A stretch of 64,000 bases of DNA from Klenkia brasiliensis (lineage in GTDB: Bacteria > Actinomycetota > Actinomycetes > Mycobacteriales > Geodermatophilaceae): contig NZ_FNCF01000004.1 of NCBI RefSeq assembly GCF_900100695.1, positions 124,001 to 188,000 of the forward strand. The letters run 5' to 3'. Positions 9,570-35,567 of this stretch are shown here, in pieces. The position numbers and the translations under genes are program-made. Below the pieces are notes generated by a model. It saw only the letters and a list, made by a program, of their open reading frames with translations. It ran no database searches and was not told the DNA's origin. How positions within the stretch are numbered: the stretch's first letter is position 1; every line of letters starts with the position of its first letter.

Positions 9570-9642
9570 GCCCGGGGACGCTAGGCGGCGGACCGGGGAC
9601 GGTCACCCCGGTTTCCGCCGACGGTCAACGCTGACGGTTGCG

Positions 9643-9648
9643 TAAGCT
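9643..9648 (+). promoter_or_regulatory. -10 box for leaderless proA mRNA
   Basis: TAAGCT ends 7 nt before the GTG at 9656. This argues for 9656 rather than the in-frame TTG at 9638, which would lie upstream of the transcription start. Confidence 0.6.
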
Positions 9649-9655
9649 CGGCCGC

Positions 9656-10906
9656 GTGCCCGAGGTCGAGCTGCCCCTGATCGGCGACGCCGCCCGTCGC
9701 GCCCGCGCCGCCGCCCGGGTGCTGCGCACGCTGCCCACCGCCACCAAGGACGGCGCCCTGCTGGCCATGGCCGACGCGCTGGTCGCGCACACCGACGACG
9801 TGCTGGCCGCCAACGCCGCCGACGTCGAGGCCGCCCGGGCGGGGGGCACCCCCGACGCGATGCTCGACCGGCTGCGGCTGGACGCCGACCGCGTCGCCGG
9901 GGTGGCCGAGGCGCTGCGCCAGCTCGTCGCCCTGCCCGACCCGGTGGGCGACGTCGTCCGCGGGTCGACCCTGGAGAACGGGCTGCAGCTGCGCCAGGTC
10001 CGGGTCCCGCTCGGCGTCGTCGGCATCGTCTACGAGGCCCGGCCCAACGTGACCGTCGACGCCGCCGGGCTGTGCCTGAAGAGCGGCAACGCCGCACTGC
10101 TGCGCGGGTCGGCCTCGGCGTACCGGACCAACACCGCCCTGGTGCAGGTGCTCGCCGAGGCCGCCGCCAAGGCCGGGCTGCCGGTCGACAGCGTGCAGCT
10201 GCTGCCCGCCGAGCGGGCCAGCGTCGGCGAGCTGCTCAACGCGCGTGGCCTGGTCGACGTCGTCATCCCGCGCGGTGGCGCCGAGCTGATCCAGCGGGTG
10301 GTCCGCGAGTCCACGGTGCCGGTCATCGAGACCGGCGTCGGCAACTGCCACGTCTACGTCGACGCCTCCGCCGACCCGGCGACCGCCGAGGCCGTCGTCC
10401 TCAACGCCAAGACCCACCGGGTCAGCGTGTGCAACTCCGCCGAGACCCTGCTGGTGCACCGCGACTACCCGCAGCGCGAGCGGCTGCTGGCCGCGCTGGT
10501 CGAGGCCGGGGTGACCCTGCACGGTGACGACGCCAGCCGGGCCGCGCACGACGCCGTGGTCCCGGCCACCGACGAGGACTGGGCCACGGAGTACCTGTCG
10601 ATGGACATGGCCGTGCGGGTGGTCGACGACGTCGACGCCGCGCTGGACCACATCGCCGCGTGGGGGAGCGGGCACTCCGAGGCGATCCTCGCCGACTCGG
10701 CCACCGCGATCTCGGCCTTCGTCGCGGGCGTGGACGCCGCCGCCGTGCTGGTCAACGCCTCCACCCGGTTCACCGACGGGGGCGAGTTCGGGTTCGGCGC
10801 CGAGATCGGCATCTCCACCCAGAAGCTGCACGCCCGCGGCCCGCTCGGCCTGCCCGAGCTGACCTCCACCACCTACGTCGTGACCGGTTCCGGCCACACC
10901 CGATAG
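9656..10906 (+). CDS. proA: Gamma-glutamyl phosphate reductase
   Basis: NADPH-dependent reductase giving glutamate 5-semialdehyde, the second step of proline synthesis. It has 416 residues of the aldehyde dehydrogenase superfamily. Family landmarks include [30 protein letters not shown], and the catalytic Cys region [15 protein letters not shown]. The GTG at 9656 is preferred because the -10 box would leave an upstream TTG (9638) untranscribed. The gene ends in TAG at 10904-10906, and this TAG forms part of the TAGGAG ribosome binding site of the next gene. Confidence 0.95.
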
Positions 10907-29739: not shown

Positions 29740-30735
29740 TCACCGGACGACGACGGCGTGCTCCCCGGCGGGCACGAACTCCCCGACCACCGGCGACCCC
29801 GGCACCTCGCCGGCCAGCAGCAGGCCACCGGAGGTCTGCGCGTCGGCCAGCAGCAGGGCGTCGTCCTCGCCGACCGCGGACAGGTCGGTGTGCGGCGCCA
29901 CCCAGTCCAGGTTCCGCCGCGTGCCGCCGGAGACGTAGCCGTCGGCCACCGACTGCCGGGCGCCGGCCAGGTAGGGGACGTCGGCGGCCGACACCACCGC
30001 GGTGACCCCGCTGGCCCGGGCCATCTTGTAGAGGTGGCCGAGCAGGCCGAACCCGGTGACGTCGGTGCCCGCCCGGATCCCGGCGGCGACCGCGGCGACC
30101 GAGGCCTCGGCGTTGAGCCGGGTCATGGACTCGATGGCCTCCGGCGACGGCTCACCGGTGGCCTTCATCCGGTTGTTCAGGGTGCCCACGCCCAGCGGCT
30201 TGGTCAGGGAGATGGCGTCGCCGGCGGCGGCGCGGTCGTTGCGGATCAGCCGGTCCAGGTCGACCAGCCCGGTGACCGCCATGCCGTAGGTGGGTTCGGG
30301 CGAGTCGATGGAGTGCCCACCGCCGACGTGGCAGCCCGCCGCGTGCGCCACCTCCAGGCCGCCGCGCAGCACCTCGGCGGCGAGCTCGGCGGGCAGCACG
30401 TCCCGCGGCCAGCCCAGCAGGTTCACCGCCACGACGGGCTGCCCGCCCATCGCGTAGACGTCGGACAGCGCGTTGGCCGCGGCGATCCGGCCGAAGGTGT
30501 ACGCGTCGTCCACGACCGGGGTGAAGAAGTCGGCGGTGAGCACCAGCCCCTGACCACCGGGCAGGCGGACCACCGCGGCGTCGTCGCCGTCGTCCAGGCC
30601 GACGACCAGCTCGGTGGCCGGGTCACGCGGGCCGGTGTGGGTGAGCCCGGCGACGACCGCCTCGAGCTCGCCGGGCGGGATCTTGCAGGCGCACCCGCCG
30701 CCGTGCGCGTACTGGGTCAGCCGGGTCGCGGTCAC
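29740..30735 (-). CDS. selD: Selenide, water dikinase (selenophosphate synthase)
   Basis: Makes selenophosphate, the selenium donor, from selenide and ATP. It has 331 residues. The N-terminal glycine-rich loop is HGGGCACKIPPGEL: the catalytic residue is Cys15 (Sec in some organisms), with Lys18 after it. The GLDDGDDAAVV and GGGHSIDSPEPTYGMAVTG segments bind Mg-ATP. GTG 30735 is chosen as the start, with a -10-like TTCACT 7 nt before it. It is transcribed away from the permease-selC-selA-selB series, with 90 bp between, and completes the set for Sec-tRNA synthesis. Because SelD itself uses Cys, it can be made without selenium. Confidence 0.96.
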   Translation of the reverse strand: MTATRLTQYAHGGGCACKIPPGELEAVVAGLTHTGPRDPATELVVGLDDGDDAAVVRLPGGQGLVLTADFFTPVVDDAYTFGRIAAANALSDVYAMGGQPVVAVNLLGWPRDVLPAELAAEVLRGGLEVAHAAGCHVGGGHSIDSPEPTYGMAVTGLVDLDRLIRNDRAAAGDAISLTKPLGVGTLNNRMKATGEPSPEAIESMTRLNAEASVAAVAAGIRAGTDVTGFGLLGHLYKMARASGVTAVVSAADVPYLAGARQSVADGYVSGGTRRNLDWVAPHTDLSAVGEDDALLLADAQTSGGLLLAGEVPGSPVVGEFVPAGEHAVVVR

Positions 30736-31914: not shown

Positions 31915-32010
31915 GGAGGCGTCAGGGTGTCTGGTGGCCCCCGCGGCCTCTAAAGCCGACGTGACCCGGTAGCCGGGTCAGGCGGGTTCGATTCCCGTCC
32001 GCCTCCGCCA
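31915..32010 (+). tRNA. selC: tRNA-Sec with anticodon CUA (reads UAG)
   Basis: 96-nt gene with encoded CCA. Acceptor GGAGGCG (31915-31921) pairs with CGCCTCC, discriminator G, then CCA. The acceptor and T stems together give 13 bp (7+6, or 8+5 with one mismatch), the hallmark of Sec tRNAs. The D arm is long with a TGGT loop. The variable arm is a perfect 8-bp stem, TGACCCGG/CCGGGTCA, with loop TAG. The T loop is TTCGATT. The anticodon loop is CTCTAAA (31948-31954) on a CGGC/GCCG stem; E. coli has CTTCAAA. The anticodon at 31950-31952 is therefore CTA where other bacteria have TCA. The gene sits directly before selA and selB. Sec tRNAs with CUA are reported in Geodermatophilus and Blastococcus (from memory). 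A tRNA-Ser/Leu or plain amber suppressor is unlikely given the 13-bp axis and the flanking genes. Confidence 0.93.
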
Positions 32011-32033: not shown

Positions 32034-33320
32034 TTGGGAGACCCGACGACCGACCCCCGCCGGCAGGTGCCCCGCACCGACGCGCTGCTCGCCGACCCCC
32101 GCGTCGCCGCGGCCGCCGACCGGCTCGGCCGCGAGCTGGTCAAGGCGGTCGTCACCGCCGTGCAGCAGCGTGTTCGGGCCGGTGAGGTGCCACCCGTGGA
32201 CGCCGCCGACACCGTGGTCGCCGCGCTGCCGACGTCGGCGGCGAGCCTGCACCGGGTGCTCAACGCCACCGGCGTGCTGGTGCACACCAACCTGGGCCGC
32301 GCGCCCTGGTCGGCCGCCGCGGTCGAGGCGGTGGTCGCGGCCAGCGGCACCACCGACGTCGAGCTCGACCTCGCCACCGGCCGCCGCGGGCCGCGCGGCG
32401 AGGGTGCGATCCAGGCGCTGCTGGCCGCGGTCCCGGCCGCGGAGGCGGCGATCGTGGTGAACAACTGCGCGGCCGCGCTCGCCCTGGTCGCCACCTGCCT
32501 GGGCGGCGAGCTGGTCGTGGCCCGCGGGGAGCTGGTCGAGATCGGCGACGGGTTCCGCATCCCCGACCTGCTGGAGTCCACCGGCGCCCGGCTGCGCGAG
32601 GTGGGGACGACGAACCGGGTGGCCCTCGCCGACTACACCGCGGCCGTCGGGCCCGGCACCGGCGCGGTGCTCAAGATCCACCCGTCGAACTTCGTGGTCC
32701 GCGGCTTCACCCGCTCCGTCGAGGTGGCCGAGCTGGCCGGGGTCGGCGTCCCCGTAGTGGCCGACGTCGGCTCTGGCCTGCTCCGCCCGCACCCGGCGCT
32801 GCCCGACGAGCCGGACCTGCAGACCACGCTGGCCGCCGGCGCCGACCTGGTGCTGTGCAGCGGGGACAAGCTGCTCGGCGGCCCGCAGGCCGGGCTCGTG
32901 CTCGGCCGGGCCGACCTGGTGCAGCGGCTGCGCCGGCACCCGCTCTACCGCGCGCTGCGGGTGGACAAGACCACCCTCGCCGCGCTGGAGGCCACGCTGC
33001 GCGGCCCGGTGCCCCCGGTGCGCCGGATGCTCGAGGCGACCGTGGCGGAGCTGCGCACCCGGGCCGAGGCGGTGGTCGCGGCGCTGGGCGGCGACGCGCA
33101 GGTGGTCGACGCCGGTGCCCGGGTCGGGGGCGGGGGCGCACCCGAGTTCGAGCTGCCCAGCGTGGCGGTGTCGGTCCCGGCCGACCTCGCCGAGCCGCTG
33201 CGCCGCGGCACGCCGCCGGTGGTCGGCTACCTGGCCGAGGGGCGCACGCTGCTGGACCTGCGCAGCCTCGACCCGGCCGACGACGAGGCGCTGGTGGGCG
33301 CCGTGCGCGCGTGCAGGTGA
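32034..33320 (+). CDS. selA: L-seryl-tRNA(Sec) selenium transferase
   Basis: PLP enzyme that converts Ser-tRNA-Sec to Sec-tRNA-Sec with selenophosphate. It has 428 residues from a TTG at 32034. Family landmarks are NATGVLVHTNLGRAPWS, VNNCAAALALV, and the PLP-binding Lys in SGDKLLGGPQAG (about residue 279). The start is uncertain: TTG 32034 lies 24 nt after the tRNA; GTG 32067 (VPRTDALLADPR) would remove 11 residues and still leave the SelA N-terminal domain. Stop TGA is 4 nt before selB. It recognises the tRNA by its shape, not by its anticodon, so a CUA tRNA is a possible substrate. Confidence 0.95.
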   Translation: MGDPTTDPRRQVPRTDALLADPRVAAAADRLGRELVKAVVTAVQQRVRAGEVPPVDAADTVVAALPTSAASLHRVLNATGVLVHTNLGRAPWSAAAVEAVVAASGTTDVELDLATGRRGPRGEGAIQALLAAVPAAEAAIVVNNCAAALALVATCLGGELVVARGELVEIGDGFRIPDLLESTGARLREVGTTNRVALADYTAAVGPGTGAVLKIHPSNFVVRGFTRSVEVAELAGVGVPVVADVGSGLLRPHPALPDEPDLQTTLAAGADLVLCSGDKLLGGPQAGLVLGRADLVQRLRRHPLYRALRVDKTTLAALEATLRGPVPPVRRMLEATVAELRTRAEAVVAALGGDAQVVDAGARVGGGGAPEFELPSVAVSVPADLAEPLRRGTPPVVGYLAEGRTLLDLRSLDPADDEALVGAVRACR

Positions 33321-33324
33321 CCGC

Positions 33325-35055
33325 ATGCAGGTGATCGCCACCGCCGGGCACGTCGACCACGGCAAGTCTGCACTGGTCACCGCGCTCACCGGCATGCAGC
33401 CCGACCGGTGGGAGGAGGAGCGCCGCCGCGGCCTGACCATCGACCTCGGCTTCGCCTGGACGACGCTGCCCGGCGGCCGCACGGTCGCCGTCGTCGACGT
33501 CCCCGGGCACGAGCGGTTCGTCGGCAACATGCTCGCCGGGGTCGGGTCCGTGCCCGCCGCGCTCATCGTGGTCGCCGCCGACGACGGCTGGTCCGCGCAG
33601 ACCGCCGAGCACGTCGCGGTGCTCGACGCGCTCGGGGTCGCGCACGGGCTGCTGGTGGTGACCAAGTCCGACCTGGCCGACCCCGCCCCCGTGCTCGCCG
33701 ACGTGCGGGAGCGGCTGGCCGCCACCTCGCTGGCCGGCATCCCCGGGGTGGCGGCGAGCTCGCGCACCGGGGACGGCGTCCCCGCGGTCGCCGCCGCGTT
33801 GGACGAGGTGCTGGCCGGCCTGCCCGCCCCCGACCCCGCCGCGCCCGTGCGGCTGTGGGTGGACCGGGCCTTCACCATCCGCGGCGCCGGCACCGTCGTC
33901 ACCGGCACCCTCGCCGCCGGCACGGTCACCGCCGGAGACCGGCTGTCCCTCGGCGGCCAGGACGTCGTCGTCCGCGGCCTGCAGTCCCTGGGCGCACCGG
34001 TGGAGCGCGCCGGGGCCACCGCCCGGGTGGCGCTGAACCTGCGCGGGGTGGCCGTGGAGGACCTCTCCCGCGGCGACGCGCTGCTCACCCCGGGGGCGTT
34101 CCGGGAGACCGCCGAGGCCGACGTCGTGCTGACCCGCACGGTGGACAAGCTGCCCGCCGAGCTGGTGGTGCACATCGGCTCGGCCACGGTCGCTGCCCGG
34201 GTGCGGCCGCTGGACGGCGCCGCGGTCCGGCTGCGGCTGGCCGCCCCGCTCCCGCTGCGGGTGGGTGACCGGCTGCTGCTGCGCGACCCGGGCAGCCGCA
34301 CCGTGCACGGCGCCGACGTCCGCGACGTCGACCCGCCGGAGCTGCGCCGCCGCGGTGCCGCCCGGGCCCGCGCAGCCGACCTCGCCGCCGGCGGGGGAGC
34401 GGCCGCCGACCTGGCCCGCCGCCGGGTGGTGCCGCTCGCCGACTTCACCGCGATGGGCTGGCCGGTCCCCGCGGGCGCGACCACGGTCGGGCGCTGGCTG
34501 CTGGCCCCCGGCCTGGCCGACGAGCTGGCCGCCCGGGTGCCCGCCGTGGTCGCCCGCTACCGGCAGCTGCGCCCGCTGGAGCCCGGCCCGCCGACCGCGG
34601 TGCTGCGCAGCGCGCTGGACCTGCCCGACGCCGACCTGGTGGCCGGGCTGGTCCGCCCGCCCCTGGCGCTGCGCGACGGCCGGGTGGTGAGCGCCGACGG
34701 CGGCCTGCCCGAGCCGGTGCAGCGGGCGGTCACCGAGGTGCTGGCCCGGTTGGCCGCCGACCCGTTCGCCGCGCCCGACGCCGAGCAGCTGGCCGCCGCC
34801 GGGCTGGGCCCGCGCGAGCTCGCGGCCGCGGTCCGCGACGGCCAGCTCGTGCGCGTGGCGGAGGGCGTCGTGCTGGCCCCGGGGGTGGAGGAACGGGCCC
34901 GCCGGGCGCTGGCCGGGTTGCCGCAGCCGTTCACCCTCAGCCAGGCCCGGCAGGCCTGGGGGACGTCGCGCCGGGTCGCCGTCCCGCTGGCCGAGTGGCT
35001 GGACGCGCGCGGCGTCACCGTGCGGCTGGGCGACGCCACCCGGAGGCTGCGGTGA
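33325..35055 (+). CDS. selB: Selenocysteine-specific elongation factor SelB
   Basis: EF-Tu-like GTPase that binds Sec-tRNA-Sec and the SECIS hairpin of the mRNA. It has 576 residues. G1 is GHVDHGKSA (8-16) and switch 2 lies in VVDVPGHERFVGNM; TKSD is G4. Beta-barrel domains 2 and 3 follow, then about 210 residues of winged-helix repeats that bind SECIS RNA (HLPQ-type segment LPQPFTLSQARQAWGTSRR). ATG 33325. SelB selects the site by SECIS, so ordinary UAG stops can still terminate. The gene overlaps the downstream GNAT gene by 4 nt. Confidence 0.95.
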   Translation: MQVIATAGHVDHGKSALVTALTGMQPDRWEEERRRGLTIDLGFAWTTLPGGRTVAVVDVPGHERFVGNMLAGVGSVPAALIVVAADDGWSAQTAEHVAVLDALGVAHGLLVVTKSDLADPAPVLADVRERLAATSLAGIPGVAASSRTGDGVPAVAAALDEVLAGLPAPDPAAPVRLWVDRAFTIRGAGTVVTGTLAAGTVTAGDRLSLGGQDVVVRGLQSLGAPVERAGATARVALNLRGVAVEDLSRGDALLTPGAFRETAEADVVLTRTVDKLPAELVVHIGSATVAARVRPLDGAAVRLRLAAPLPLRVGDRLLLRDPGSRTVHGADVRDVDPPELRRRGAARARAADLAAGGGAAADLARRRVVPLADFTAMGWPVPAGATTVGRWLLAPGLADELAARVPAVVARYRQLRPLEPGPPTAVLRSALDLPDADLVAGLVRPPLALRDGRVVSADGGLPEPVQRAVTEVLARLAADPFAAPDAEQLAAAGLGPRELAAAVRDGQLVRVAEGVVLAPGVEERARRALAGLPQPFTLSQARQAWGTSRRVAVPLAEWLDARGVTVRLGDATRRLR

Positions 35056-35567
35056 GGGCCGTCGTCCGGGTCGGTGCGCCCCAGGAGGCAGCGGCGCTGA
35101 CCCGGGCGATGGACGCGCCGGCCGGGGTCTACGCCTCGCACCTCGCCGCGCAGGCCGAGGGCCGGTGCACCGTGCTGGTCGCCGAGGTCGGCGGCCGGGT
35201 CGTCGGCACCGGCATGCTGCGCCGGGAACCGCGGGACACCGTCGTGCGGGAGCGGCTGGGGAGCATGCCGGAGATCAGCAACCTGCAGGTGCACCCCGAC
35301 GAGCAGGGCCGGGGCCACGGCACCGCGCTGGTCGAGGCGGCGTGCGCCCTCGCCGCCGCCGGGGGCGGCACCCGGGTCGGCATCGGCGTCGGCGAGGACA
35401 ACCCGGACGCGGCCCGGCTGTACCTCCGGCTGGGCTTCGCCGACGTCGGGCTCGCCTACGCCGACCACTACAACTGGACCGACGTCGACGGCGTCGAGCA
35501 CCACGCGGCCGACGACGTCCGCTACCTGGTCCGGGACCTGGGTCAGGGCAGCGGACCGCCGAGGTAG
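35052..35567 (+). CDS. GNAT family N-acetyltransferase in the sel operon
   Basis: 171 residues. The acetyl-CoA loop VHPDEQGRGHGTALVEAA and the end motif NPDAARLYLRLGF mark a standard GNAT fold. The GTG overlaps the selB stop (GTGA), so it is the last gene of the selA-selB operon. A link to selenium metabolism (for example acetylation of a selenium or arsenic-type amino compound) is only suggested by position. It ends in TAG, overlapping the small opposite gene by 25 bp. Confidence 0.85.
   Translation: MRAVVRVGAPQEAAALTRAMDAPAGVYASHLAAQAEGRCTVLVAEVGGRVVGTGMLRREPRDTVVRERLGSMPEISNLQVHPDEQGRGHGTALVEAACALAAAGGGTRVGIGVGEDNPDAARLYLRLGFADVGLAYADHYNWTDVDGVEHHAADDVRYLVRDLGQGSGPPR

Follow-up and report, generated by a model that had tools for sequence, protein, structure and literature searches.

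A selenocysteine tRNA with anticodon CUA, and UAG as its probable codon, in Klenkia brasiliensis and its relatives

The sel cluster and its tRNA

The window analysed here is a stretch of 64,000 nucleotides of Klenkia brasiliensis (contig NZ_FNCF01000004.1, positions 124,001 to 188,000). It carries a cluster of selenocysteine (Sec) genes in the order selD-selC-selA-selB:

about 29740..30735, minus strand: selD, selenophosphate synthase, Cys form (GGGCACK); GTG start inferred; TIGR00476, 382.8 bits
31915..32010, plus strand: selC, tRNASec with encoded GCCA end; RF01852, ARAGORN and a stem check
31950..31952, plus strand: anticodon CTA of selC, reads UAG; ARAGORN and Rfam RF01852
32034..33320, plus strand: selA, Sec synthase; Pfam SelA 6.4e-95, TIGR00474 413.5 bits; start uncertain, TTG in the list of open reading frames
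33325..35055, plus strand: selB, Sec-specific elongation factor; GTP_EFTU, SelB-wing_3 and SelB beta-barrel domains

As the preliminary description had stated, selC lies directly before selA and selB: selA starts 27 bases on from it, and selB comes next on the same strand, in a frame that opens at 33115 but has an ATG at 33325 that fits the start of the domains. The selD gene on the minus strand is an addition to that description, which named only selA and selB; its TIGR00476 match covers window positions 29809-30723 (G000:C12:153809-154723). The genome holds a single SelA match over the TIGR00474 cut-off; the window's SelA and its K. taihuensis counterpart share 95.6% identity.

The Rfam tRNA-Sec model RF01852 matches selC over its full length (31915-32006; 67.7 bits, cut-off 47, E 1.2e-11), and the encoded GCCA follows directly at 32007-32010. 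An acceptor stem of 7 standard pairs and a T stem of 6 (one G-U) give a 13-pair axis, and the variable arm is long; dividing the axis as 8+5 instead puts one U-C pair in the acceptor stem. The anticodon loop is closed by four standard pairs; the Rfam model has two further positions at the outer end of this stem, which here are C-C and G-A and do not pair. The loop reads CT-CTA-AA, and the RF01852 alignment places CTA at positions 34-36; UCA, the usual but not universal anticodon of tRNASec, is absent, and CTA is a variant feature. Hence the Sec-specific 13-bp axis, the long variable arm and the CTA anticodon of the preliminary description are all borne out, with no TCA shifted into 34-36.

A second selC bearing TCA had been named as a finding that would count against UAG decoding. 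The assembly (4.45 Mb, 14 contigs, estimated by the tool to be 99.97% complete) was searched with RF01852 and showed no other tRNASec, whether with TCA or with another anticodon. Six matches were obtained, of which only selC is above the cut-off; the other five are tRNAs for Ser (tga, cga, gga), Arg (tct) and Tyr (gta).

ARAGORN likewise calls a tRNA over 31915-32010, reads its anticodon as cta and on that ground labels it tRNA-Pyl. The label and the anticodon would suit a pyrrolysine tRNA, with UAG standing for pyrrolysine, but we consider this reading extremely improbable. The tRNA-Sec match is full-length and over its cut-off, the 13-pair axis and long variable arm speak for tRNASec, selA and selB adjoin the gene, and the TAG of the target gene described below stands at a Sec site. 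Furthermore, a search for PylS gave no match in this genome, and one of 14 control genomes was over the cut-off.

A formate dehydrogenase gene with TAG at the Sec site

A search of the K. brasiliensis genome for the molybdopterin family gave one match with an internal TAG, the formate dehydrogenase (FDH) alpha gene:

contig C3, TAG at 664176, minus strand: FDH alpha (formate dehydrogenase-N alpha); 1106-residue open reading frame when read through, TAG at codon 200

At E<=1e-30, FDH alpha has one match in the genome, and this match holds one in-frame TAG. When translated past the TAG, it matches the NF041513 model (formate dehydrogenase) with 1917 bits. The context of the TAG, QARI*HSATV...YGRG, is the Sec site, where relatives carry either TGA or a codon for Cys. 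The frame after FDH alpha gives a partial match to FDH beta, at 174.9 bits below the cut-off of 334.7.

FDH, UGSC-type and AhpC-type genes were looked for, and FDH alpha is the one selenoprotein gene found. In this genome, a UGSC-type pattern carrying TAG matched 14 times, versus 21 times for a reversed control, and thus shows no excess; eight of the 14 were inspected by frame, one of which (L228) is flanked on either side by long open frames. None of the six AhpC-type matches in K. brasiliensis holds an internal stop, nor does any of the 11 in Geodermatophilus sp. LHW52908. An AhpC-type match holding TGA in another genome of the family (G017) is weak (24.3 bits, cut-off 26) and was dropped after inspection. 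Selenoprotein genes with in-frame TGA only had been proposed as a refutation of UAG decoding; the gene found carries TAG, while a TGA selenoprotein may still exist outside the FDH, UGSC-type and AhpC-type families covered.

The hairpin behind the Sec codon

The preliminary description had called for an FDH gene with an in-frame TAG followed by a SECIS-like hairpin, and such a hairpin begins 11 bases past the TAG of FDH alpha, with a 7-pair stem and the loop GGTCT. Together with the TAG at the Sec site, it supports the claim that this genome would decode UAG as Sec.

The hairpin was compared across 32 of the 113 listed TAG genes of the family (20 distinct sequences), all 32 of which, read base by base, have TAG at the Sec codon. 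Pairs are formed in 99.3% of cells over the 20 distinct sequences, and in at most 62.1% when the partner is slid by 1 to 3 columns. Changes on both sides occur in seven cells, and the covariation score amounts to 0.235 versus 0.092; none of 500 shuffles attains either value. Two pairs show changes on both sides, but 54 of 500 shuffles reach that number. Part of the conservation here is not due to RNA, because the protein is conserved at this place too.

In other families, the same stem stands behind TGA and is 92.4% paired (16 of 17 fetched genes; L212, without the FDH motif by the expression used, was left out). Just seven of the 15 distinct sequences form its outermost pair. A single pair shows changes on both sides, a number reached by 427 of 500 shuffles. 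The stem is broken in two FDH genes with Cys (L223 and L224), which keep 4 and 3 of the 7 pairs.

UAG as a stop codon elsewhere

TAG terminates proA (9638-10906), whose match to its family extends as far as position 417 of 418. Rough gene calling on the window and the loci L042 and L044 gave 41 calls, with TGA as the stop codon in 35 and TAG in six. One of these six may be the piece of FDH before the Sec codon, and another, at 34995-35567, shares 61 bases with the end of selB.

Since a CTA anticodon would pair with any UAG, selC could in principle act as a general amber suppressor, with UAG reassigned throughout the genome. We judge this very unlikely, given how proA ends. Moreover, a suppressor would have no need of the SECIS-type hairpin that is kept behind the FDH TAG with two pairs changed on both sides. 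Because proA is complete and TAG-terminated, we conclude that UAG is recoded at marked sites and is not reassigned genome-wide.

Anticodon and codon across the Geodermatophilaceae

A 321-residue FDH query was run against 196 genomes and found matches in 150 of them; the following counts are among the 150 matches listed. All 113 from the Geodermatophilaceae (96 genomes) hold one TAG, while those from other families of the order hold one TGA (35/37) or no stop (2/37), and none holds TAG. The family is represented by 112 genomes, of which 12 have no FDH match and four have one outside those listed.

The anticodon of tRNASec was read in 28 of the 112 family genomes and is CTA in 21 (one of which, Geodermatophilus sp. 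LHW52908, has an extra TCA gene) and TCA in seven. All nine genomes of the genus Klenkia have CTA. The seven TCA genomes are fragmented drafts (G012, G015, G017, G022, G024, G031 and G035; loci L059, L060 and L188-L192), in none of which the 321-residue query found an FDH match.

Scanning 84,980 species genomes with a pattern picked out 92 stretches in which a CTA loop sits in a tRNASec-like frame; other CTA tRNASec genes could be missed, because the pattern demands fixed letters in the D- and T-loops. Rfam was used for confirmation on few of the 92, and 82 have a SelA match in the same stretch. Geodermatophilaceae is the label of 86, and three with other labels belong there too (89/92 in all): L103 and L138 sit inside the CTA clade of the family in the SelA tree, and the SelA of L111 is 75% identical to the window's. 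The remaining three are one Coriobacteriia metagenome-assembled genome (MAG), treated below, and two that were rejected as tRNASec, namely L128, which gives neither a tRNA nor an Rfam match, and L153, which Rfam assigns to RF00005. The latter (L153 2782-2868, on an Erysipelotrichaceae MAG contig) is an ordinary-type tRNA with CTA, possibly an amber suppressor.

A SelA tree was built by a quick method from 105 distinct rows of 138 SelA-matching loci, leaving out 16 with under 380 aligned residues and 17 repeats. In this tree, 82 of the 83 CTA rows form one clade with support 100, and the anticodon label changes twice (the same with the starred branches alone) versus 20.3 times in shuffles. The four TCA rows of the Geodermatophilaceae form their own group (support 98), which may stand next to the CTA clade. 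The exact places of the Coriobacteriia row and of L302 are unsure, because both are flagged as long branches.

A further conceivable reading for K. brasiliensis is a decayed or mis-sequenced selC and an FDH pseudogene. This we regard as highly implausible in view of the CTA shared by every Klenkia genome and by the 89 pattern stretches of Geodermatophilaceae type, and of the single TAG in each family FDH match listed. What is added here is the mapping of the agreement between anticodon and codon across the Geodermatophilaceae, in which members with the old code (TCA) are still present.

Genomes with two tRNASec genes

Geodermatophilus sp. LHW52908 has both a CTA and a TCA tRNASec:

L046 9836-9927, contig C11: CTA tRNASec
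L045 1173-1263, contig C17: extra TCA tRNASec, 81.8 bits

A third RF01852 match in this genome, at 48.2 bits barely over the cut-off, is a tRNA-Ser. The surroundings of the extra TCA gene have lower GC and contain transposase genes and a JAB-like gene; no match to selA, selB or FDH was found on contig C17. The genome has one selA, and its single FDH match (E<=1e-30, among the matches listed) holds TAG. Scanning contig C17 for a stop codon plus hairpin gave five candidates, none of them convincing, and these searches brought no target with TGA to light.

No phage tRNAs similar to the extra TCA tRNASec were found, and seven plasmid records hold a similar tRNA. Two of these were read: on a plasmid of Arthrobacter sp. 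YA7-1, typed as conjugative (L204), and on one of Tsukamurella tyrosinosolvens, typed as non-mobilizable (L205), an FDH operon is accompanied by selD, tRNASec, selA and selB.

In Blastococcus endophyticus, two CTA tRNASec genes lie on one contig (L169 2092-2183 and L183 5048-5139), with selA near each.

A CTA tRNASec in a Coriobacteriia MAG

The remaining pattern stretch comes from the Coriobacteriia MAG S32M_St_metabat_43 (JAUNNF010000009.1, locus L174; genome G196, 1.5 Mb), of which the 40 kb read are 34% GC. The following features were identified:

L174 7597-7689: tRNASec, anticodon CTA; RF01852, 64.2 bits
L271 4895-6208: GrdB, glycine reductase, with TAG; TIGR01917, 672 bits (cut-off 602.2), whole length read through
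L271 10319-10795: GrdA, glycine reductase, with TAG; reduct_selen_A, 274.6 bits (cut-off 130), whole length read through

The tRNASec is the sole RF01852 match over the cut-off in this genome. Its start lies within selB, 16 bases short of the end of that gene, in the order selA, selB, tRNASec, with YedF and SelD coming after it. Both glycine reductase genes are on the same contig as the tRNA. GrdA reads ECFV*TSAGAMDLENQ and GrdB reads ILTST*GTCTRCGATMVKEIE, where the asterisk is TAG; the latter is probably the Sec site, judging from the GrdB motif together with the whole-length TIGR01917 match. TAG also ends other frames of the MAG (8 of 35 rough calls, one being a piece of GrdB).

GrdA was found at E<=1e-10 in eight of the 199 genomes around the MAG. 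The MAG has TAG and the other seven have TGA, in all seven cases at the same codon as the MAG's TAG. Six relatives were searched for tRNASec; five have one over the cut-off, in each case with TCA, and the sixth has none over the cut-off.

A sequencing error in the MAG is unlikely, because three changes agree (the tRNA and two genes). We do not take the system as a transfer from the Geodermatophilaceae, because its SelA is only 34% identical to that of the window. Single-sequence folds of the MAG behind the TAG of GrdA and GrdB showed no informative hairpin. Judging from the tRNA and the two genes, the MAG is apparently an independent second case of UAG-Sec. A literature search found no report of UAG-Sec in Coriobacteriia; Mukai 2016 was outside this search and may contain one.

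Interpretation

Taken together, we hold with great confidence that selC encodes a functional tRNASec in which CUA has replaced the anticodon UCA and which would insert Sec at hairpin-marked UAG codons. The tRNA, its anticodon, the sel genes, the TAG at the Sec site, the hairpin and the family-wide agreement of tRNA and codon are read from the DNA itself. By analogy with the known bacterial Sec pathway, serine would be attached to tRNASec(CUA), and SelA would turn Ser-tRNASec into Sec-tRNA with selenophosphate from SelD. SelB would then deliver the Sec-tRNA to ribosomes at UAG codons with a SECIS hairpin behind them, placing Sec in the protein, and UAG codons elsewhere would keep their stop meaning.

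A change of codon meaning usually needs many simultaneous changes; Sec, with one or a few hairpin-marked sites, seems cheaply switchable. It is likely that UAG-Sec arose at least two times, once in the main Geodermatophilaceae clade with FDH and independently in Coriobacteriia with the tRNA and two glycine reductase genes, alongside a possible natural two-codon state in one Geodermatophilus. A switch in most of a family, members that keep the old code and an apparent second switch in another class make the route testable: whether the tRNA or the gene changed first, and what happens when both tRNAs share one cell. A reading by the standard code splits these FDH and Grd genes in two at the TAG.

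Comparison with known systems

Mukai et al. (Angew Chem, 2016) reportedly confirmed the use of UAG in Geodermatophilus and Blastococcus by selenium labelling or mass spectrometry, and are said to have described tRNASec for UAG, UAA and ten sense codons in genomes and metagenomes.

The precedent in this family cited by the preliminary description is found in section 17 of PMC5330540, which describes tRNASec CUA in three genomes of the Geodermatophilaceae, where UAG occurs in genes for FDH, for UGSC-motif proteins and for AhpC, the AhpC selenoprotein being that of Blastococcus saxobsidens DD2, and which credits UAG-Sec in the Geodermatophilaceae to Mukai 2016. PMC5330540 also reports two tRNASec genes in each of eight bacterial genomes, in passages that do not mention differing anticodons. 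No report of a mixed CTA and TCA pair of tRNASec genes in one genome was found in the literature searched, which did not include Mukai 2016. None of the three mentions of UAG in a 2026 review (PMC13188914) concerns natural UAG-Sec.

For the Geodermatophilaceae, then, this is a known code variant, here in the genus Klenkia. The Klenkia system shares the family, the anticodon and the kind of target (FDH with TAG at the Sec site) with that previously described, but the UGSC-motif and AhpC selenoproteins of the latter were not found in the Klenkia genome. The anticodon CUA, the TAG at the Sec site and the SECIS-type hairpin are all present, the last with the caveats of the shuffles. The standard tRNASec(UCA)/UGA/SECIS system of other families of the order is alike in having selA and selB beside the tRNA, in fold, in hairpin and in its FDH target; it differs in using UCA and UGA, where Klenkia has CUA and UAG. 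Amber decoding by tRNAPyl and PylS likewise reads UAG, but with another tRNA fold and charging enzyme and without SECIS, and PylS is unmatched in this genome. Finally, the Coriobacteriia MAG resembles Klenkia in its CTA tRNASec after selA-selB and in its TAG at Sec sites, but it belongs to a separate lineage, set apart by its divergent SelA, its low GC and its glycine reductase targets GrdA and GrdB.
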